A stretch of DNA of 45,217 bases, taken from positions 1 through 45,217 of the IMG/VR virus record IMGVR_UViG_3300046780_000312. One strand, written 5' to 3'. The DNA comes from a virus. The position numbers were made by a program, and so were the translations under genes. The notes under the pieces were generated by a model. The model saw nothing but the letters and a program-made list of their open reading frames with translations, was not told the DNA's origin and ran no database searches. Within the stretch, counting starts at the first letter, position 1. Every line of letters begins with the position of its first letter. Positions 10,274 to 44,172 of this stretch are shown here, in pieces.

Positions 10274-11052
10274 AGACAGGATTCGACTGTTTCGGCCCGG
10301 TGTCCGCTGCGACGCTGGGTCGGGCCGTGACGCACGGCTACTCGTTCGTCGCCCGGTATTATGGCTCGCCGGGAAGCAGCAAGCTCCTGCTGCCGGATGA
10401 AGCCCGGCGGATTACCGATGCGGGCTTGCGCATATTCTCGGTGTTCGAGCGCACGTCGGGGCGACCGTTGGAAGGCGGCCCCGCGGGGCAGGCCGATGCA
10501 ACGCTCGCGAAAACTCAGGCTCACGCGGCAGGCCAGACCCAAGGGTCGGTGATCTGTTTCGCCGTTGACCAAGACATCGACGTGAGCAAGCCGGCCATCC
10601 AGAGCGCGCTCTACGGCTACTTTGACGCAGTGAAAACCTCCTTGGCCGGCAAATATTTTGTCGCCGGATACGGCGGCGGCGATGTCCTCGACTACCTGCT
10701 GACCCACGACTTGATAACGGTCGCGTGGCTTGCCGGCGCGATGGGGTGGCGCGGGTCGCGGGCGTTTGACGCAGCGAAGCGCTGGCACCTGAAGCAGGGT
10801 GCGACGGTGAATGGCGGCGATCTCGGGATTGAGTATGACCCGAACGTCGCAGTGGACCTGGACACCATCGGCGCGTGGTGGTTGCTGGATGCTGGGCCAG
10901 TTAAGCCTCCCGCGCCGCCGCCCGTCGATGTCGAGAACGCGATCAGGTCGTTGCAGGCCGTCCTGCTGGCGGCCGGGCTCTACCACGGCACCGTTGACGG
11001 CGATCCCGGCCCGCTGACCATCGCCGCATTGCGGGCGTGGCGGGCGTCGTGA
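10270..11052 (+). CDS. Endolysin candidate: DUF1906 / Rv2525c-like glycoside hydrolase-like protein
   Basis: This is a 260-residue protein. Residues 3-205 match the DUF1906 TIM-barrel family (KTGFDCFGPVSA at the start, SFVARYYG, ITDAGLRIFSVFE, SVICFAVDQDID, YFVAGYGGG), used as the catalytic domain of many phage endolysins. The C-terminal 45 residues (AIRSLQAVLLAAGLYHGTVDG, then LTIAALRAW) look like a peptidoglycan-binding domain. It has no signal peptide, so a holin would be needed. GTG at 10270 is preferred: GAGGGGGTGG precedes it and the family starts here. It heads the lysis cassette. Confidence 0.7.
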   Translation: MKTGFDCFGPVSAATLGRAVTHGYSFVARYYGSPGSSKLLLPDEARRITDAGLRIFSVFERTSGRPLEGGPAGQADATLAKTQAHAAGQTQGSVICFAVDQDIDVSKPAIQSALYGYFDAVKTSLAGKYFVAGYGGGDVLDYLLTHDLITVAWLAGAMGWRGSRAFDAAKRWHLKQGATVNGGDLGIEYDPNVAVDLDTIGAWWLLDAGPVKPPAPPPVDVENAIRSLQAVLLAAGLYHGTVDGDPGPLTIAALRAWRAS

Positions 11053-30451: not shown

Positions 30452-31228
30452 ATGCCCGGCTCCCGCCCAGACACCTGGATGCCGCTTTATATCGGCGATT
30501 ATCTCGCCGACACCATGCACCTGAGCCCCATCCAGCACGGCATCTATATGCTGCTCATAATGGCCTACTGGCGCAATGGAGGCCCCCTGCCTAACGACCC
30601 CGCGCAACTGGCCGCCATCGCAAGGTGCAGCCCAAAGGTGTGGTTAAAACAGTCGATTTTGGTTTCCCAAAAGTTTCACGTGAGCGACTCCTTTTGGGCG
30701 CACAAACGGATCGATGCCGAGCTTGCCTCAGCCGTGGCAAAAACCGAGGAAAGGAGCCGATCAGGCAGCGAGGGGGCGCGACAAAGGTGGCAAAAACAGG
30801 ATGGCTCAGCTATCGGTTTGCCATTGGCAAACGCATCGCAAAACGATGCACCTTCACCTTCACCTTCAGAAAGTAAGAAAGAAGAAACCCCCCTTACCCC
30901 CCAAGGGGGGCGAGTGTCAGCAAGCGAGGAGTTTGATGGATGGTGGCAGGAGTGTCCGCGCAAGGTCGGCAAGGACGCTGCGGCCAGGAAGTACCTGATT
31001 GCCCGGCGGCAGGCCGATGCCGAGACGCTGCTTGCCGGCATGCGGCGATACCGTGCCTCCGTCTCCGACAAGGAGCCGCAATACATCGTTCACCCGGCGG
31101 CATGGCTGCATCAGGGTCGCTGGAAGGATGAGGAGGCCGTCGCAGTCAACGGGCACGACAGCGGCCCGAAGGAGCCGGCGGTGATAACCCCGGAGCTTAA
31201 GGAGTGGATGGACAAATGGCATCATTGA
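30452..31228 (+). CDS. DUF1376 replication-module protein
   Basis: This is a 258-residue protein. Residues 7-70 (TWMPLYIGDYLADTMHLS, QHGIYMLLIMAYWRNGG, LAAIARC) are the DUF1376 winged-helix domain found in phage replication-initiator proteins. A disordered linker follows. The C-terminal domain (FDGWWQECPRKVGKDAAARK, YIVHPAAWLHQGRW) resembles helicase-loader partners. It probably recruits the host replisome, since no phage polymerase is present. The gene also contains a partial parS-like sequence at 30673-30683. Confidence 0.75.
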   Translation: MPGSRPDTWMPLYIGDYLADTMHLSPIQHGIYMLLIMAYWRNGGPLPNDPAQLAAIARCSPKVWLKQSILVSQKFHVSDSFWAHKRIDAELASAVAKTEERSRSGSEGARQRWQKQDGSAIGLPLANASQNDAPSPSPSESKKEETPLTPQGGRVSASEEFDGWWQECPRKVGKDAAARKYLIARRQADAETLLAGMRRYRASVSDKEPQYIVHPAAWLHQGRWKDEEAVAVNGHDSGPKEPAVITPELKEWMDKWHH

Positions 31229-33538: not shown

Positions 33539-33601
33539 CCCCTCGCAATCCGCACCGTTTTTTCGGTTTCCCCCTCGCAATCCGCGTCAATTTTTCGGTT
33601 T
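33539..33601 (+). repeat. Tandem 31-bp direct repeats ending in TTTTTCGGTTT
   Basis: Both copies begin CCCCTCGCAATCCGC and end TTTTTCGGTTT, differing at 4 of 31 positions. The 32-bp period is not a multiple of three, so the copies would be read in different frames, arguing against coding repeats and for a protein-binding array. Confidence 0.75.
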
Positions 33602-33851
33602 TCGGCTGACGGCAGAGGCATACTTTACCGGCTTCTGGCGGCGGCGATTTACCGTCGCTGACAATGTGCGCCGCTTTTTCGGTTTTGCCAAGCGCAAAAA
33701 CCGCTGACGCGCCCCGGCAGCACGGCAGCATCTTTTCTTGGGCTCGACGGGTTGTGGGGTGGAGAGACACGCTGCAAGGAACAGCGTGGAAGGAGCGCTT
33801 CGCGCAAGTCCATAGCAAGTTCTCCCCCCCTACCCCCCCTCATCGGTCAGT

Positions 33852-35803: not shown

Positions 35804-36006
35804 CACGGCAACCTCTGTGGCCGGAATGGCTGGAGCAGCATATCCGCCGCGTGACCGGGCCGGAAGACGAGGCAGACACGAATGTAAACGGCGATCCCGA
35901 CTCGACGGTTGGGGACGATGACGAATCGGGCTTCGAGGAGATGCACGGCGAGCCGGATATGGATTTCGATCCGGAGGATGACGACGAGGATGGCGAGGAC
36001 GAATGA
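35800..36006 (+). CDS. Highly acidic small protein
   Basis: This is a 68-residue protein with a short basic start (MTRQPLWPEWLEQHIRRVTG) and then a long Asp/Glu-rich tail. Strongly acidic small phage proteins can mimic DNA or act as anti-restriction factors; here that is speculation from composition. It is coupled by GTGA and ATGA to its neighbours. Confidence 0.55.
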   Translation: MTRQPLWPEWLEQHIRRVTGPEDEADTNVNGDPDSTVGDDDESGFEEMHGEPDMDFDPEDDDEDGEDE

Positions 36007-36317
36007 ACGCCGCCGCGAATAAGCTGACGTGGACCCCGGAGCGCATCGCGACCCTGCGGGAGAGCGTGGCCGCCGGCATGACCTACGCGCAGATCGGGAA
36101 GGCGATGGGCCTCTCTAAGAACCAGTGTTGCGGCAAGGCCGACCGGCTGGGGCTAAGGCTGGGCGCGGACGCCCCGGGATCGGCGCGCCAGCAATCCAGC
36201 CGGGGGTGGGCGGGGCCTGAGCCCCGGACCATCCATGACCGGCTGAACGAGATCCACGCCCGCCTCGACGCGGTGCTGGCCGAGACGCGGAACGTGGGCC
36301 GGTTGCCGGGCCGGTGA
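36003..36317 (+). CDS. GcrA-like helix-turn-helix protein
   Basis: This is a 104-residue protein. LTWTPERIATLRESVAAGMT, AQIGKAMGLSKNQCCGKADR, LGL (residues 8-51) matches the N-terminal DNA-binding segment of GcrA, the alphaproteobacterial cell-cycle regulator that acts with sigma-70 at methylated GANTC sites. The C-terminal part differs from host GcrA. It may tune late transcription or mimic GcrA. It supports an alphaproteobacterial host. Confidence 0.6.
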   Translation: MNAAANKLTWTPERIATLRESVAAGMTYAQIGKAMGLSKNQCCGKADRLGLRLGADAPGSARQQSSRGWAGPEPRTIHDRLNEIHARLDAVLAETRNVGRLPGR

Positions 36318-36623: not shown

Positions 36624-36820
36624 GCGACGCCGACATCGAGATCATCGACTGCTCCGAGTGTGGCCAACCCATCGAGACACGCTGGGCCAGGGACGGAAAT
36701 CACGGTCTTCTGCCGAGCGATGACTACCTGCTGATCGCAGATTGGGTTTTTCACCCAGATTGCTGGGATGCTGTTGTGAAGCGCGGCGAGCCACCGGATG
36801 AGGAAAGGCCGCGCGATTGA
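36620..36820 (+). CDS. Small zinc-knuckle-like protein
   Basis: This is a 66-residue protein from GTG 36620. CSECGQ and FHPDCW give a C-x2-C...H-x2-C set that can bind zinc. Its first residues (MSDADIEII) resemble those of the terminase that follows (MSDADVKTI), reflecting a short DNA repeat at both starts. It overlaps the terminase start. It lies where a terminase small subunit could be, but that is not shown. Confidence 0.6.
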   Translation: MSDADIEIIDCSECGQPIETRWARDGNHGLLPSDDYLLIADWVFHPDCWDAVVKRGEPPDEERPRD

Positions 36821-38898
36821 GCGACGCCGATGTCAAAACCATCGCCGAGACGATCTCCCGGCTCTCGGCCGACAAGTGGCTGGCGCACCAGATCGTCTTC
36901 CGCCACCGCCACCCGGACGGCTCGCCGCCGTTCCACCGCGAGATGGTCGCCGATTTCTGGTCAGACGACCGCTACTCGATCCTCCTCGCCTTTCGCGGCT
37001 CGGGCAAATCGACCATCGGTGAAGAGGATATCGCGCTCGCTGTCGTGCTGCGGCGCTATCACAACATCCTCATCATAGGCTCCAGCGAGGCCCGCGCCGC
37101 CGAGCGCCTCGCCTCGGTCGCCTTCGAGCTTCGCCACAACGCCTACCTGACCGACCATTTCGGCGATCAGATCGGGACGGTGGATCGCCAGACCAAGCTG
37201 GTGACGACGCACGGCGTCTGCATCCAGGCCCTCGGCCGCGATCAGGACATCCGCGGTATCAAGCATCTCGACTATCGCCCCGACTTCGTGTTCGTCGATG
37301 ACTTCGAAGACAAGGACAACGTGCTGACCCCGGAGGGCCGCATCAAGACGATGCGCTGGTTCCTGGCGGAATTGCTGCAAGCCTGCGACCCGCAGCGCAA
37401 GGTCCGCATCCGGGCGACGCCGATGAACGAGGACGCGGTGCCGCTGCGCCTTGCCCGCGAGGCCAAGTGGCCGATCCGCACCTTCCCGGTGGAGTATATA
37501 GATGAGTCGGGTGCGCGCTGCGCCTCGTGGCCCGACCGCTTCCCGCTCCACTGGATTATCCGCGAGCGCCGCATCTACGAGAGCGTCGGTGAGCTTGGGG
37601 TGTGGGACCGCGAGATGATGTGCCGCGCGGTCAGCGACGCCGATCAGGTGTTCAAGAAGGGGATGATCCGGGTCGAGCCGCGGGTCCGCTCGTGGCAGGC
37701 ATGCTACGCGATGATCGATCCGGCCCGGACAATCAACCAGCGCTCGGCGACCACCGGCTGGGCGGTCTGGTCCTGGCTGTCGAACCGTCTGGTGGTGTGG
37801 GGCGCCGATGCCCAGCTATTGCTGCCGGATGAGATTGTGGCGCTGGGCTTCGATATCGCGGAGCGCTTCGACCCGGTTTGGCTGGGCGTTGAGCAGGATG
37901 GGCTTGAGCAATTCCTGCTTCAGCCGTTCCGGCATGAAATGGTCAGACGAGGGGTATACCTACCGCTTAGAGGTGTCCGTGCGCCCCGGGGTAAGCTGGA
38001 CTTTATTCGGGGCCTCCAGCCCTTCTTCGCCAACCGCGAGGCCGAGTTCGCCCAGCCACTCCCGGCACTGACGGAACAGCTTCTCAACTTCCCAACAGGT
38101 AGGATCGACGCGCCAAACGCGCTCGCGTACGCCCTCACCATGCGACCAGGGCTCCCGATATACGATAATTTCCAGGCTGAACACGTCGCTGTCGATGCGG
38201 AATTTGCTTCCGGCCGCCCGCTCTTTCTCGCCGCCAATGCCACCCGGGCGATGACCGCTGCCGTCCTCTTGCAGGCTCATGATGGGGGCCTCACTGTTCT
38301 GGCCGATTGGGTCGCCGAGGGCAGTCCGGCGGAACTCGTTCACACTATATATATAGAGGCGTGTACGCGCGTCGATACGCAGCGCTTCGGGCAGGCGATC
38401 CCGAAGCCCCGTTCGTGGGACGAGATGCTCAAGATATCGGGGCCGAGCCAAGTCAGCCTGCGCACCCCGCCGGTCTGGGTGATGCCGCCGGTACACGGGG
38501 AGAAATATACCAATGTGGGGCTGGCTCAGGCGGTTCGCGGTCTACCGGCGGAGGTACGCTTTGGCGGCGACCAGCCCCAAGGCGCGCTCCATCTGCACGA
38601 TCTGCTTGGGCGTAGCTCCCGGGGAATGCCCGTGGTCGAGGTGGCCAGCACCGCCAAGTGGACTCTGCGAGCCCTTAGCGGTGGTTACACGCGTGCCCTT
38701 ATCCGGGGACGATTGCAGGACCACGCCGAGGAGGGGCCGTACCGCTTATTGATGGAGGGCCTCGAATCCTTCGTGGCGATCCTGCGGAGCGGGCTTGCGG
38801 AAAAGGACGAAACGGAGGATATGGAACAGCACTACGCCACCGATCATCTCGGGCGGCGGTACAAGACGGCGATGCCGCAACGCGACCGGAGGATCTGA
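36817..38898 (+). CDS. terL: Terminase large subunit
   Basis: This 693-residue packaging motor and nuclease starts at a TTG that overlaps the previous stop (TTGA). Walker A is FRGSGKST (59-66), Walker B FVFVDDFED (157-165), and ATP-coupling motif ATPMNED (about 200-206). The RNase H-like nuclease has Asp301 (AMIDPART), Glu359/Asp361 (GVEQDGLE) and Asp431 (RIDAPNALAYAL). Most such enzymes end near residue 470; here about 220 more residues follow, including FLAANATRAMTAAVLLQAHD and repeated Asp/Gly segments, of unknown role. Portal and capsid genes follow. Confidence 0.85.
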   Translation: MSDADVKTIAETISRLSADKWLAHQIVFRHRHPDGSPPFHREMVADFWSDDRYSILLAFRGSGKSTIGEEDIALAVVLRRYHNILIIGSSEARAAERLASVAFELRHNAYLTDHFGDQIGTVDRQTKLVTTHGVCIQALGRDQDIRGIKHLDYRPDFVFVDDFEDKDNVLTPEGRIKTMRWFLAELLQACDPQRKVRIRATPMNEDAVPLRLAREAKWPIRTFPVEYIDESGARCASWPDRFPLHWIIRERRIYESVGELGVWDREMMCRAVSDADQVFKKGMIRVEPRVRSWQACYAMIDPARTINQRSATTGWAVWSWLSNRLVVWGADAQLLLPDEIVALGFDIAERFDPVWLGVEQDGLEQFLLQPFRHEMVRRGVYLPLRGVRAPRGKLDFIRGLQPFFANREAEFAQPLPALTEQLLNFPTGRIDAPNALAYALTMRPGLPIYDNFQAEHVAVDAEFASGRPLFLAANATRAMTAAVLLQAHDGGLTVLADWVAEGSPAELVHTIYIEACTRVDTQRFGQAIPKPRSWDEMLKISGPSQVSLRTPPVWVMPPVHGEKYTNVGLAQAVRGLPAEVRFGGDQPQGALHLHDLLGRSSRGMPVVEVASTAKWTLRALSGGYTRALIRGRLQDHAEEGPYRLLMEGLESFVAILRSGLAEKDETEDMEQHYATDHLGRRYKTAMPQRDRRI

Positions 38899-39395: not shown

Positions 39396-41609
39396 GTGGC
39401 CGACGACGAGCCGCAGGATCAGCCCGAGGAGGGGGGCGAGCTAGAGGAACGCTCGGCCCCTCGCCGCGACCAGGATCTGCTCGGCCGCCGCAACGCCAAC
39501 GCCAAGGGCGGCATCCGCGTCCGCCTCGACGAACTGTTCGGCGACGTGGAGAAGGGCTTTCAGGATCAGGCCGACCGCGCCGACGCGATTGCCGATTACT
39601 GGGACTGTTACAACTGCGTGGCGAATGGGAATAGATATTACAACGGCATAGCCGACATCTATTTCCCGATCATCCACGATGCCATCGAGGCGCGGGTCAC
39701 GCGCTTCGTCAACCAGTTGTTTCCGCAGGGCGGGCGCTACGTGCAATGCATCGCCGCTGATGGCAGTACAGAGAACGCCCTCGTCGCCCTGCTCGATCAC
39801 TACATCGACGGGCGCGAAGCCAAGACGCAGGTGGTCGAGCCGCTGATCCGCAACGGCGACGTCGAGGGGCAATACAACCTCTACGTCGATTGGGCCGAGG
39901 TCGAGCGGCAGATTGTTTCACGTGAAACACATGGCCCCAAAGACCCGGAAACCGGCATGGAAGCGCCGGGCGACGAGATCGAGGACATCGCGGAAGAAGA
40001 TGTGATCGAGGGCTTCCCGGTGCTGGAAGTCCTGCACGACAGCGATGTCCTGGTGTTGCCGGTAACCGCCGACACCGAGGACGAGGCGCTGGCTCGCGGC
40101 GGCAGCGTCACCATCGTGCGGCGCTGGGGCAAGTCCGACATCGATCGCCTGCGGAAGCAGGGCGAGATCCGCGAGGACGAGGCCAAGATCCTCAAGGACG
40201 AGATGGGCAAGGTCGCGAACGGCGCCGACAAGGATATCGAGAAGCGCCTGCTTGAGGCCGCGCACATCAAAAAGGGCGGCAAGGAATGCACCGTCTGGGA
40301 AACCTGGACGATGCTGCCGTTGAAGGACGGCAAGTATAACGAGGACGGGGAACCCCGCCTCTGCCGCGTCTTCCTCGGGCCGCAGCGGGCGCTGCTCGGC
40401 GCCAAGCGCAACCCGTACTGGAACGACCGCTGCCCGCTGCTGTCGCGCCCGGTAAAGAAGATGTCGGGGGCCTTCAAGGGGCCGTCCCTGATCTCCTACG
40501 TGGACAGCCTGCAATACGAGGCCAACGACGCCGCCAACGAGGGAGCCGATGCCGCGACCCTCTCGGCCGCGCCGATCGTCGCCCGCGATCCGGAAAAATA
40601 CAATGGCCCGCTGGTATTCAACATGGGGGCGATCTGGGACATCGCGCCGGGGGCCGTAGAACTGCTTACCTTCCCCGACCTGACGCCGCGGGCGATGACG
40701 CGGGTGCAGATGGCGATCCAGCAGATATTCCAGACGCTCGGCGTCAACCCGTCGATGCTGCCGCAGCAGACCCGATCCGGCAAACCGAACCAAGCGCAGG
40801 TGGCGCAGGAGCAGGCGGTCGATCTGCTGACCACGGCGACCGCCGTGACGGTGATCGAGCGCGGCATCCTGACCCGCGCCACCGCACTGATTGTCGATTA
40901 CGACTACCAGTTCCGCGACCGCGACATCACGATCCGCATGTACGGCTCCGAGGGCAAGCGGGCGGTAATGCAGGAGGTCGGCCCCCTCCAGAACCGCCAC
41001 GGCTTCACCTTTACGTGGCGCGGCGGCGAGCAGGTGCGCCAGAACGCGATGACTCAGCAGCAGGGCACCGGCATGATGAACGTGCTGCGCGGCATGCGGC
41101 AGGATCTGATGGCCGAGGGGTATATGCTGCGGATCGGCCCCCTCGCTGCGCAGTGGGTTACGAATGCTTTCGGCCCAGAGCAGGGCTCCAACATTCTGGT
41201 TGACCAGCGCGATCAGTTGACGATCCCGCAGGGCCAGGAAAACGAGATGCTGCTGGACGGCTTCATGGTGCCGGTCCACCCGCTCGACAACGACGAGCAG
41301 CACATCCCGGTGGCGATGCAGGCAATTCAGCAGACCGGCGATCCGCACGGCACACTGCGCGTCCACCTCCAGGCTCACCTCCAGCAGCGGCAGGCCAAGG
41401 CGCAGGCCCAGATGATGCAGAAGATGGCGCAGCAGATGCAGGGCGCGGGCGGCGGCCAACCCGGTATTCCGGGCGGCCCGCAGCGCCCGGGCATGCCGCA
41501 GCAGGGCGCCAACCCCGCCGGCCCGCGCCTCATCAAAGGCCCGCCGGGTGCCGTTCATCCCGACAACGCCAGCCGCGCCGGCGGCCTTCAGATGCCGAGG
41601 AAGTACTAG
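39396..41609 (+). CDS. Portal protein
   Basis: This is a 737-residue protein resembling podovirus portals of the P22/N4 kind. RNANAKGGIRVRLDELFGDV, then DIYFPIIHDAIEARVTRFVN near residue 95, an acidic middle, and RCPLLSRPVKKMSGAFKGPS, QQIFQTLGVNPSMLPQQTRS are typical. The C-terminus is Gln/Met/Pro-rich (the barrel and tail region). It forms the 12-subunit DNA entry ring. Codons 173-178 (ATT GTT TCA CGT GAA ACA) contain an exact parS sequence and are unusual for this GC-rich gene. GTG start 4 bases after the previous stop. Confidence 0.8.
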   Translation: MADDEPQDQPEEGGELEERSAPRRDQDLLGRRNANAKGGIRVRLDELFGDVEKGFQDQADRADAIADYWDCYNCVANGNRYYNGIADIYFPIIHDAIEARVTRFVNQLFPQGGRYVQCIAADGSTENALVALLDHYIDGREAKTQVVEPLIRNGDVEGQYNLYVDWAEVERQIVSRETHGPKDPETGMEAPGDEIEDIAEEDVIEGFPVLEVLHDSDVLVLPVTADTEDEALARGGSVTIVRRWGKSDIDRLRKQGEIREDEAKILKDEMGKVANGADKDIEKRLLEAAHIKKGGKECTVWETWTMLPLKDGKYNEDGEPRLCRVFLGPQRALLGAKRNPYWNDRCPLLSRPVKKMSGAFKGPSLISYVDSLQYEANDAANEGADAATLSAAPIVARDPEKYNGPLVFNMGAIWDIAPGAVELLTFPDLTPRAMTRVQMAIQQIFQTLGVNPSMLPQQTRSGKPNQAQVAQEQAVDLLTTATAVTVIERGILTRATALIVDYDYQFRDRDITIRMYGSEGKRAVMQEVGPLQNRHGFTFTWRGGEQVRQNAMTQQQGTGMMNVLRGMRQDLMAEGYMLRIGPLAAQWVTNAFGPEQGSNILVDQRDQLTIPQGQENEMLLDGFMVPVHPLDNDEQHIPVAMQAIQQTGDPHGTLRVHLQAHLQQRQAKAQAQMMQKMAQQMQGAGGGQPGIPGGPQRPGMPQQGANPAGPRLIKGPPGAVHPDNASRAGGLQMPRKY
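39914..39929. promoter_or_regulatory. parS: Exact parS consensus (ParB-binding site)
   Basis: TGTTTCACGTGAAACA, a perfect 16-bp palindrome, is identical to the chromosomal parS consensus bound by ParB across most bacteria. It lies inside the portal gene. No ParA or ParB gene is visible in the window, so the host ParB would be the ligand. Confidence 0.85.
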
Positions 41610-41867
41610 ATGAACGGCAAGCTGTGGACGGGCAAGGAGATCGAGATCCTGCGGCACGATACCGAGAACCACGTCCCCCGCGCGGAAACGGCGGTCAAGC
41701 TGGGGCGCACTGCGGCGGCGGTTAACTGGAAGATGTCGGAGCTTGGCCTGCTCTACCCGATCGAGACTGAGTTGGAGCGTCACGACCGACTCTTTCGCCA
41801 GAGATGGAAGCGCAAATTGCCGGCGATGAAGGCGGCAATCCGCGAGGCGGTCCTGCAATCCGCTTGA
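41610..41867 (+). CDS. Small helix-turn-helix protein after the portal
   Basis: This is an 85-residue basic protein starting right after the portal stop. KLWTGKEIEILRHDTENHVP, then ETAVKLGRTAAAVNWKMSEL, resembles the GcrA/SANT-like DNA-binding helices of the protein at 36003. The end is Arg/Lys-rich. It may regulate the promoter at 41864, which overlaps its own 3' end. Confidence 0.6.
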   Translation: MNGKLWTGKEIEILRHDTENHVPRAETAVKLGRTAAAVNWKMSELGLLYPIETELERHDRLFRQRWKRKLPAMKAAIREAVLQSA

Positions 41868-41894
41868 CAATATAGAGCGTCGGTGGAATAGGCT
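41864..41894 (+). promoter_or_regulatory. Promoter candidate for the scaffold-capsid operon
   Basis: A perfect TTGACA (41864-41869) overlaps the stop of the helix-turn-helix gene. The -10 is weak: AATAGG at 17 bp or TAGGCT (41889-41894) at 19 bp spacing. It gives a leader of about 90 bases before the ATG at 41988, containing two direct repeats. Confidence 0.5.
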
Positions 41895-41903
41895 GATAGC
41901 TAC

Positions 41904-41972
41904 ATCGAGTGGCCGGACGTAACTGGCCCGCGCGCACAGCGTCAGAGTGCGTATCGAGTCGCGGGACGTAAC
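41904..41972 (+). repeat. 20-bp direct repeat in the capsid-operon leader
   Basis: ATCGAGTGGCCGGACGTAAC (41904-41923) and ATCGAGTCGCGGGACGTAAC (41953-41972) match at 18 of 20 positions, 49 bases apart. They lie between the promoter and the scaffold start, in DNA or RNA of the leader, where an activator or RNA-binding protein could bind. Confidence 0.65.
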
Positions 41973-41987
41973 CCACGGGAGTTGAGA

Positions 41988-42779
41988 ATGTCGGACCTGC
42001 CTGATCCCCAATCCGGGGACGAGGAGATTGATCTTGAAGGCGAAGAAACCGAAGGCGATGCCGAAGGCCCCGGCGGCGATGAAGATGCCGAAGGGGATGC
42101 CGGCGATGATGGGCAAGGGCAAGAAGAAGGCGAAGGCGATGTAGAGCCGCCTGCGCGGCAGGGGCGCAAGTCCCAGGCGCAGCGCTGGCGGGACCGGGCA
42201 GAAAGGAACGAGAGGGAGCTTCAGGCTCTCAAGAATCAGTTTCAGGGCTTCACGCAAGCCTCGCAGCAGACGCGGCAGCAGCCGGACCCGGCGCAGGCGC
42301 GGCAGCAGGCGGAGTACCGGCAAGCCCAGTTGGAGATGATGAGCCCGCTTCAGCAGGCGGAGTTCATCGCGAACGAGAAGGCACAGCAGTTTCAGCAGGC
42401 GATGCTCTTTCAGAGCCTGCAAACCGAGGACCGGCTTGATAAGCGCGATTTCGACTTTGCAGCGAGAACCAGTACGGCCCGTGCCAGATACAAGGCTGAG
42501 GTCGAGCAGGAGCTTGCCGCCGAACGACAGGCGGGGAACCTGCGCGCCACTCGCGAGGGCATCTATCAGCGCTTGCTCGGTCGGGATGTTGACGAGCGCA
42601 CCAGCCGCGCATTGCCGAAGCAGCGGCGCGATGCGGCGGGGCGCGTGGCGCGGCAGCAGACCCGGCCCGGTGGGGCTCGCGGCGACGGTGCCGCGGGTGG
42701 CAGGCGTCCCGCAGCGGGAACGCCGGAGCATGACGACATGCTCGTCGAGCAGTATTTCAAAGAGGGCGGCAGGCTTTAG
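41988..42779 (+). CDS. Scaffold protein
   Basis: This is a 263-residue protein between portal and capsid, the usual scaffold position. Residues 1-55 are extremely acidic and Gly-rich (GDEEIDLEGEETEGDAEGPG). Residues 60-200 form long Gln/Arg/Glu-rich helices likely to be coiled coils, and the C-terminus is basic then ends EQYFKEGGRL. Scaffolds have this layout and guide capsid assembly. ATG 41988 follows GGGAG. Confidence 0.65.
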   Translation: MSDLPDPQSGDEEIDLEGEETEGDAEGPGGDEDAEGDAGDDGQGQEEGEGDVEPPARQGRKSQAQRWRDRAERNERELQALKNQFQGFTQASQQTRQQPDPAQARQQAEYRQAQLEMMSPLQQAEFIANEKAQQFQQAMLFQSLQTEDRLDKRDFDFAARTSTARARYKAEVEQELAAERQAGNLRATREGIYQRLLGRDVDERTSRALPKQRRDAAGRVARQQTRPGGARGDGAAGGRRPAAGTPEHDDMLVEQYFKEGGRL

Positions 42780-42819: not shown

Positions 42820-44172
42820 ATGGCCGTTACCGTAAACGTATCAAGCCAGTATGCCGGCGCCATCGAGCGCAAGATCGACCGGACGGCCTTGCAGGTCGCC
42901 CAGCGCTACCTCGTCCTCTACCAATTCGCCGACAAGCGCACGCTGGAACACGGTCGCGGCACGGTCTGGACCGCGATCAGGTGGAACCGCCTCCCATTGG
43001 CACAGGCCCCGATCGCCGAGGGCGTGCCGCCGCCGCCGAACCAGCTTACCTTCACCCAGGTTGCCGGCGTCGCCCTCCAGTGGGCCGGAAGAATTGTCTT
43101 CACCGATGTCGCGACGATCACGATTCAGCAGGATCTCCTGCGCATTGCCGGCGAACGCCTCGGCATGCAGCTCGCCGAAACCAAGGAGCGCAATGGCTAC
43201 AACGCGCTGATGGCCGGGACGCAGGTCAACTACGTCGCGTCGGCCGGCGCTCGCGCCTCTCTCGTCGTCGGCAACAACCTCGACCCGCAGACCGTGACCC
43301 GCACCGCGACCAACCTCCAGGTCGTTGGGGCGCCGTTCTGGAACGGTCAGACCGGCGAGACAATCCAGCGCTCTATCGACTACAACGTGAATCAGGCCGA
43401 CAAGACCTCGACCAAGGCGGCCGAGCATCTGGTGGCGATCGGCGATCCGCGCACCCTTCAGGATTTCCGCAACAATCCGCTGGTGGTGCAGACCTACCAG
43501 TACTCCGACCATGTGAAGCTCTACACCAACCAGCACGGCTATTGGGGCAGCATGACGTTCGTCACGTCGAACATTCTGCCGAACTGGACCGGCCGGGCGC
43601 AGGTCAACGGGGCCAACGCGGTGGGTTCGCTCGCCACCGCCACCTATACGGTGCAGGTCACGGGCTGGGATAACCAGAATTTCTACGAGAGCCAAATCTA
43701 CCAACTCTCGGCCGACGTTGCGGTCACGACCGGCGGCATCGTCCTGACCATGCCCTCGACCCCGGGCTTCACCTACGCGGTCTATGTCGGGCAAGGCTCG
43801 GCGGCCCCGACGCAGAATCTCGGCGTCACGTCGAGCGGCCCGACCACCGGCCCCTACGCCGGGCAGGCAATCATGATCCCGCCCTCGACCGTCGTGACGA
43901 TCACCGATATCGGCTTGTTCCAGATCCCGCCCGCCGCCCCGGCGACCGCGGCGGGGACGGTCTACCCGACCTTCGTCTTCGGCAAGGAAGCATTCGCCTG
44001 CCTGAAGCTGGAGAGCGTCGAGTGGAACCGGCTATACAACGCCGACAAGTCGGACCCGCACAACCAGTTGCGGGTGATCGGCTACAAGTACATGGAAGGT
44101 TGGGTAATTCTGAACCAGCAGTTCATGGCAAGAATTGAAAGCACCGCGTCCTCGACCGGCGCCTTCGCGTAA
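42820..44172 (+). CDS. Major capsid protein, N4-gp56 family
   Basis: This is a 450-residue protein. EHGRGTVWTAIRWNRLPLAQ, APIAEGVPPPPNQLTF, ALQWAGRIVFTDVATITIQQ and the end VYPTFVFGKEAFACLKLE, SDPHNQLRVIGYKYMEGWVI match N4-gp56-type major capsid proteins with the HK97 fold. Residues about 255-380 are an Ig-like insertion (TYTVQVTGWDNQNF, TYAVYVGQGSAAPTQN) that may decorate the shell. The ribosome-binding site sits in a hairpin. Confidence 0.85.
   Translation: MAVTVNVSSQYAGAIERKIDRTALQVAQRYLVLYQFADKRTLEHGRGTVWTAIRWNRLPLAQAPIAEGVPPPPNQLTFTQVAGVALQWAGRIVFTDVATITIQQDLLRIAGERLGMQLAETKERNGYNALMAGTQVNYVASAGARASLVVGNNLDPQTVTRTATNLQVVGAPFWNGQTGETIQRSIDYNVNQADKTSTKAAEHLVAIGDPRTLQDFRNNPLVVQTYQYSDHVKLYTNQHGYWGSMTFVTSNILPNWTGRAQVNGANAVGSLATATYTVQVTGWDNQNFYESQIYQLSADVAVTTGGIVLTMPSTPGFTYAVYVGQGSAAPTQNLGVTSSGPTTGPYAGQAIMIPPSTVVTITDIGLFQIPPAAPATAAGTVYPTFVFGKEAFACLKLESVEWNRLYNADKSDPHNQLRVIGYKYMEGWVILNQQFMARIESTASSTGAFA

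Follow-up and report, generated by a model that had tools for sequence, protein, structure and literature searches.

The Portal Locus and Its parS Site

The DNA analyzed here, referred to as the window, is a linear IMG/VR virus record of 45,217 bases with a GC content of 64%. The features on which the argument depends are the following.

30452..31228, + strand: primosomal or replication-initiation protein gene (DUF1376; phrog_9327, E 2.1e-40; PF07120)
36003..36317, + strand: GcrA-family cell-cycle regulator domain (PF07750, E 1.4e-8, above the cut-off; 3.0e-10 in another search)
36817..38898, + strand: terminase large subunit gene, terL (phrog_38, E 4.5e-45)
39396..41609, + strand: portal protein gene, 737 aa, containing parS (AlphaFold and Foldseek fold match)
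39914..39929, no strand: parS, TGTTTCACGTGAAACA, a palindromic 16-mer present once in the record
39915..39928, no strand: 14-bp core of parS, GTTTCACGTGAAAC, the conserved part, equal to the ParB footprint of Jalal et al. (2020)
42820..44172, + strand: major capsid protein gene (phrog_1357, E 3.4e-19)

The protein encoded at 39396..41609 has no confident match in Pfam or PHROGs, and a profile built from 26 portal relatives had a single, weak hit, a portal protein of solved structure. Its AlphaFold model (pLDDT 73.7), when searched with Foldseek, matched the portal of cyanophage A4 (E 5.8e-16) as well as those of N4, T7 and PaP3. The gene is preceded by terL and followed by the major capsid gene. 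Fold and position together identify it as a podovirus-type portal, the function that the initial annotation had given it.

The primosomal or replication-initiation gene indicates that the phage possesses its own replication module, and the window also encodes an ERF annealing protein, a YqaJ-type exonuclease and a RusA-like resolvase. Three 31-bp direct repeats at 33539-33685, which are 74-87% alike and have T-rich tails, lie in a part of the early region with few genes and are candidate iterons of a replication origin. A small ORF directly after the portal (41610-41867) weakly matches phrog_323 (D5-like transcription regulators), as does the ORF with the GcrA domain. Searches of the window for tRNAs and Rfam families were empty.

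The 16-mer TGTTTCACGTGAAACA is present as a single copy, as first reported, and no further match with three or fewer mismatches was found in the 45,217-base window; shuffled sequence gave a mean of 0.06 matches at three mismatches. No other perfect palindrome in the window exceeds 12 bp. At equal base frequencies, one given 16-mer would turn up in 45 kb with a probability of about 1e-5, in agreement with the value originally proposed; at the composition of the window the probability is about 2e-6. The 14-bp core is the site present in the ParB-parS crystal structure (Jalal et al., 2020; PMC7383237). The reading frame across parS is ATT GTT TCA CGT GAA ACA, or IVSRET, and VSRET forms portal residues 174-178, which close a predicted beta-strand ahead of a loop. 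The codons had been described as atypical of their surroundings, and this holds for TCA, CGT and ACA, which make up 4.7% of Ser, 6.9% of Arg and 8.9% of Thr codons, respectively, in ten large ORFs of the window.

Conservation of parS Among Portal Relatives

Portal relatives were taken from 67 loci in IMG/VR. By hand tally, 50 of them carry parS at the same place, 38 exactly, six with one mismatch and six with two. The 14-bp core is unbroken in 47 of these 50 portals, at protein identities down to 35%. Dereplication left 24 portals with pairwise amino acid identities from 35% (median 56%), and the addition of two far relatives, L194 and L195, gave an alignment of 26 rows. The TCA, CGT and GAA codons of parS are invariant in all 26, although TCA and CGT account for merely 6.5% of Ser and 7% of Arg codons in the 24 dereplicated genes. 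Across 94 four-fold degenerate columns, parsimony counted a mean of 5.8 changes. Two columns were unchanged, and both are in parS, in its TCA and CGT codons. Similarly, the four-codon segment at 39915-39924 has one change, compared with a mean of 19.9 (sd 6.6) for such segments and six for the next lowest.

The limits of this conservation coincide with the edges of the ParB footprint. In the 26 rows, 13 core positions carry 2 bits of information and the remaining one 1.76 bits. Information is lower at the first and last positions of the 16-mer and, in general, further out; the T immediately 5' of the 16-mer is also invariant. The outermost base pair of the 16-mer drifts among relatives, and the final residue of VSRET, threonine, has its wobble base beyond the core and is encoded by ACA, ACC, ACG and ACT. 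The VSRE residues are kept within the portal clade, and other codons for VSRET occur among the 50 portals as single departures alone (L033 and L045).

Invariant core codons next to a free threonine wobble are characteristic of DNA that a protein binds, rather than of a peptide motif. The initial annotation had suggested selection on DNA rather than protein and had asked whether related portals spell these residues with random synonymous codons. The opposite was seen, with rare codons fixed at parS, and its suggestion is strongly supported. Judged from these alignments, the parS in the portal is a DNA element under selection. It matches TGTTTCACGTGAAACA with the core intact and is maintained at the DNA level, two properties expected of a chromosomal-type parS.

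Other sources of constraint were considered. An antisense ORF at 39918-42731 on the minus strand was rejected since it is broken at differing places in relatives. An RNA or DNA hairpin was likewise rejected, as the core has no compensatory changes and variation is confined to the outer positions, where it is often one-sided.

A different outcome is that the site is specified by the protein, with the VSRET motif under selection and the DNA match a by-product. Conservation of VSRE in the clade is what this would predict. However, it would not explain why the rare TCA and CGT codons, along with GAA, are fixed in 26 portals while their neighbors wobble, or why the third base of the threonine codon, outside the core, varies freely. 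Sister portals also carry other residues at this place, and unrelated proteins encode VSRET with identical codons. The explanation is therefore scarcely credible.

Relocation and Loss of the Site

In the sister clade L049-L053, whose members are nearly identical copies of a single phage, the portal is 42% identical to that of the window, has other residues at the parS place and carries no site there. In these genomes the exact 16-mer is located in terL, within the part encoding the C terminus, where it is read GTT TCA CGT GAA ACA. The far relatives L194 and L195, reached through the L049-L053 terminase, carry parS in the portal at the corresponding place. There is one parS per genome in records of the lineage.

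Not all relatives possess the site. Where sequence was available, no site within two to three mismatches was found in L047, L048, L054-L059, L065, L066, L068, L193 and L196, and relatives at 35-42% identity include some without parS at this threshold. Thus, parS is dispensable in some backgrounds and can be lost. In a quick portal tree, its distribution requires few changes. The sole record with a tyrosine integrase, G020 (L055), is without parS, and no integrase was found in the parS-bearing records.

Phage Partition Genes and the Probable Host

The initial annotation saw no ParA or ParB gene, and profile searches confirmed this for the window. Among the 29 records of the group, which are linear contigs and possibly incomplete, none matched ParB_N (PF02195), TIGR00180 or the ParA-type AAA_31 family (PF13614), while controls were detected. 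The records thus have neither a recognizable parB nor a recognizable parA gene of a phage-encoded ParABS system, and parS would be an orphan of the phi29 and SGI1 type, a site on an element without ParAB. No repressor or other non-lytic indicator was found.

The motif GANTC occurs 52 times in the window compared with 195 expected, an approximately four-fold depletion. Ratios of observed to expected range from 0.02 to 0.45 in eight relatives, and the ratio is 0.65 in phi29. In the relative G021, GANTC is nearly absent (3 vs. 141 expected). The depletion suggests that the host has methylation or restriction of the CcrM/HinfI type. A GcrA match is present in four of the 29 records. Together, the GcrA domain and GANTC depletion point to a probable host among the Alphaproteobacteria with a CcrM-type system. 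A search of INPHARED and GTDB contigs for an isolate or prophage found no portal relatives, and no host can be assigned from the matches of the terL, capsid, ERF and primosomal proteins because of their distance. The ParB of the alphaproteobacterium Hyphomonas has been assayed on this exact 16-mer (PMC6650430).

Occurrence of parS in Other Phages

Exact parS was found in at least 120 IMG/VR stretches, compared with seven and five for two palindromes of the same composition. In a phage collection it was present in 286 records and a shuffled palindrome control in none, but these 286 are not independent events because many are close copies of each other. Given the shuffles, the control palindromes and the unchanged four-fold columns, chance is ruled out as the origin of the portal parS. 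ParB_N matches were lacking in 42 of the 46 parS-bearing IMG/VR records searched.

The carriers include Listeria P100-like, Microbacterium, Arthrobacter, Gordonia, Lactobacillus and Ruegeria phages, the phi29-like B103 and Goe1, and Microviridae. Within coding sequences parS is mostly read as VSRET, the same codons spelling these residues in unrelated proteins, and one frame is closed by the internal TGA. In Arthrobacter phage Ranunculus the site is within an unrelated portal; elsewhere it lies in lysozyme, primase-like or scaffold-like genes or is intergenic. Gene 15 of B103 and of Goe1 contains the exact 16-mer, read as VSRET. In phi29 (L228), four copies of TGTTTCACGTGGAACA, each one mismatch from parS, lie at 10445, 15903, 17243 and 18760, in connector gene 10, lysozyme gene 15, an intergenic position and gene 17. 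A dozen parS-like sites, mostly TGTTTCACGTGGAACA, are spread across 9 kb of the viral contig L154 (4988-13878). Exact parS is also present in tiny ssDNA phages (Microviridae, gokushoviruses and Spiroplasma phage 4), in which partition is hard to picture.

The scaffold-like and primase-like families (L121/L179 and L159/L176, with relatives L233-L237 and L290-L298), unrelated to the portals, carry the core in VSRET codons within clades of close relatives. In the scaffold-like family parS is kept in close relatives alone and its outer base drifts. In the primase-like family it is kept at 74-76% identity and absent in L301 (71%) and L299/L300 (45%). Gains in these families therefore look repeated and younger. 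Overall, we tentatively propose that orphan parS sites which borrow the CTP-dependent ParB clamp of the host may be a general feature of bacterial viruses that has evolved repeatedly, in tailed and ssDNA phages and in lytic and temperate ones alike. The sites would usually be coded as VSRET, with the lineage of the window as the most deeply conserved case found. This is possible, but it falls slightly short of an even chance.

Proposed Function and Alternatives

ParB forms a CTP clamp on loading at parS and passes DNA on to ParA and SMC. The portal parS is very probably a loading site for host ParB, as had been suggested from its sequence. Host ParB is well supported as the likely ligand because the conserved bases are identical to its footprint, a phage ParB is lacking, the site recurs in unrelated phages and phi29 provides a precedent. 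Upon entry of the phage DNA, host ParB-CTP would bind the 14-bp core, close as a clamp and slide across the region of the portal and capsid genes. The phage partition complex would then be treated like a chromosome origin by the ParA of the host and perhaps by SMC. The phage genome would thereby be placed and partitioned if lysis were not immediate, as in starved or slowly dividing cells, during lytic deferment or in episomal carriage.

The benefit to the phage is less certain than the ligand. Silencing of late genes, tethering to the segregation machinery of the host and titration of ParB had all been put forward. Titration is unlikely because there is one site per genome. By analogy, tethering or segregation appears the best supported of these roles. 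Partition is preferred because of spore entrapment by phi29, the case of SGI1 and the stabilization of plasmids by a single parS together with the chromosomal par operon (PMC7022226). Whether partition or tethering is the benefit seems evenly balanced, and by a small measure we favor the complete reading, in which the element would be a functional parS for chromosomal ParB and the genome would be placed or partitioned by host ParABS during delayed lysis.

Two alternatives retain host ParB as the ligand. ParB or SMC might be recruited for compaction, for protection from nucleases or SMC-like defenses, for self-marking or for polar positioning during replication. That ParB at parS loads SMC is established, and parS also occurs in strictly lytic and small ssDNA phages, for which partition of daughters is a less obvious benefit. 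Nevertheless, such non-partition ends are fairly unlikely. It is unlikely that the benefit instead lies in the timing of expression, with ParB spreading to slow or block the late operon until lysis is favorable. The position of parS early in the late operon, in the portal or, after relocation, in neighboring terL, would suit this role, and genes close to parS can be silenced when ParB is overproduced (reviewed in PMC7022226). However, natural parS sites often leave their neighbors unsilenced (PMC7022226), and in other phages the sites are not consistently tied to a late promoter, being found in lysozyme, primase-like and scaffold-like genes and between genes.

The remaining alternative replaces the ligand, making the palindrome a site merely resembling parS that is read by a phage protein, either as a terminase pac site or by a phage regulator. 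The terL-portal region is a common place for packaging sites. Yet relatives with a homologous terminase lack parS or carry it in another gene, unrelated phages carry the core in genes distant from packaging, and conservation follows the ParB footprint base by base, all of which make a phage reader very unlikely.

Overall, a conserved centromere copy in the portal gene of uncultured viruses suggests that a segregation protein is borrowed from the host. If so, host chromosome segregation would be a common target of phages, beyond phi29 and sporulation, and the persistence in slow-growing cells of phages that have neither integrase nor partition genes would be explained. The 14-bp site would serve as a simple marker for finding such phages. 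The question can be tested with phages whose parS and host ParB are both available in the laboratory, such as the Bacillus phages B103 and phi29 and Ruegeria phage DSS3P8.

Comparison With Known Systems

Orphan parS sites on mobile elements are already known from phi29 and SGI1. In published open-licence papers, no account of orphan parS in phages beyond phi29 was found, and the deep conservation and breadth of phage parS seem unreported in the literature searched.

Some alphaproteobacterial phages defer lysis under the control of CtrA, and some encode GcrA (PMC9437464). As proposed for the lineage of the window, their development is tied to cell-cycle proteins of the host. In contrast, this deferment acts through a transcription factor, and the window has no TTAA-N7-TTAA site, for which reason CtrA sites were rejected as deferment partners. 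The phage-plasmids P1 and N15 and mycobacteriophage RedRock have their own parABS (PMC7157519). Their genomes are partitioned by ParB on a cis site, as would be the case here, but they supply ParA, ParB and the centromere themselves, whereas neither gene was found in the lineage of the window.

The genomic island SGI1 is a closer parallel. Its parS-like sites bind the ParB of IncC plasmids, which stabilizes SGI1 (PMC10954446). Like the lineage of the window, it is a mobile element without ParAB that carries sites for the ParB of another replicon. It differs in having two sites, a plasmid system as its target and an experimentally demonstrated effect, while the proposed target here is the chromosomal system. 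PMC9437464, citing Meijer et al. (2005), describes the use of host ParB (Spo0J) by phi29 for spore entrapment. Phi29 and its relatives, like the lineage of the window, have no ParABS of their own and carry parS-like sites in late structural genes. Phi29 is lytic, and its sites also lie in lysis gene 15 and elsewhere. It carries four sites and infects a sporulating bacterium, whereas the lineage of the window has one site, in an unrelated portal, and probably a non-sporulating alphaproteobacterial host.
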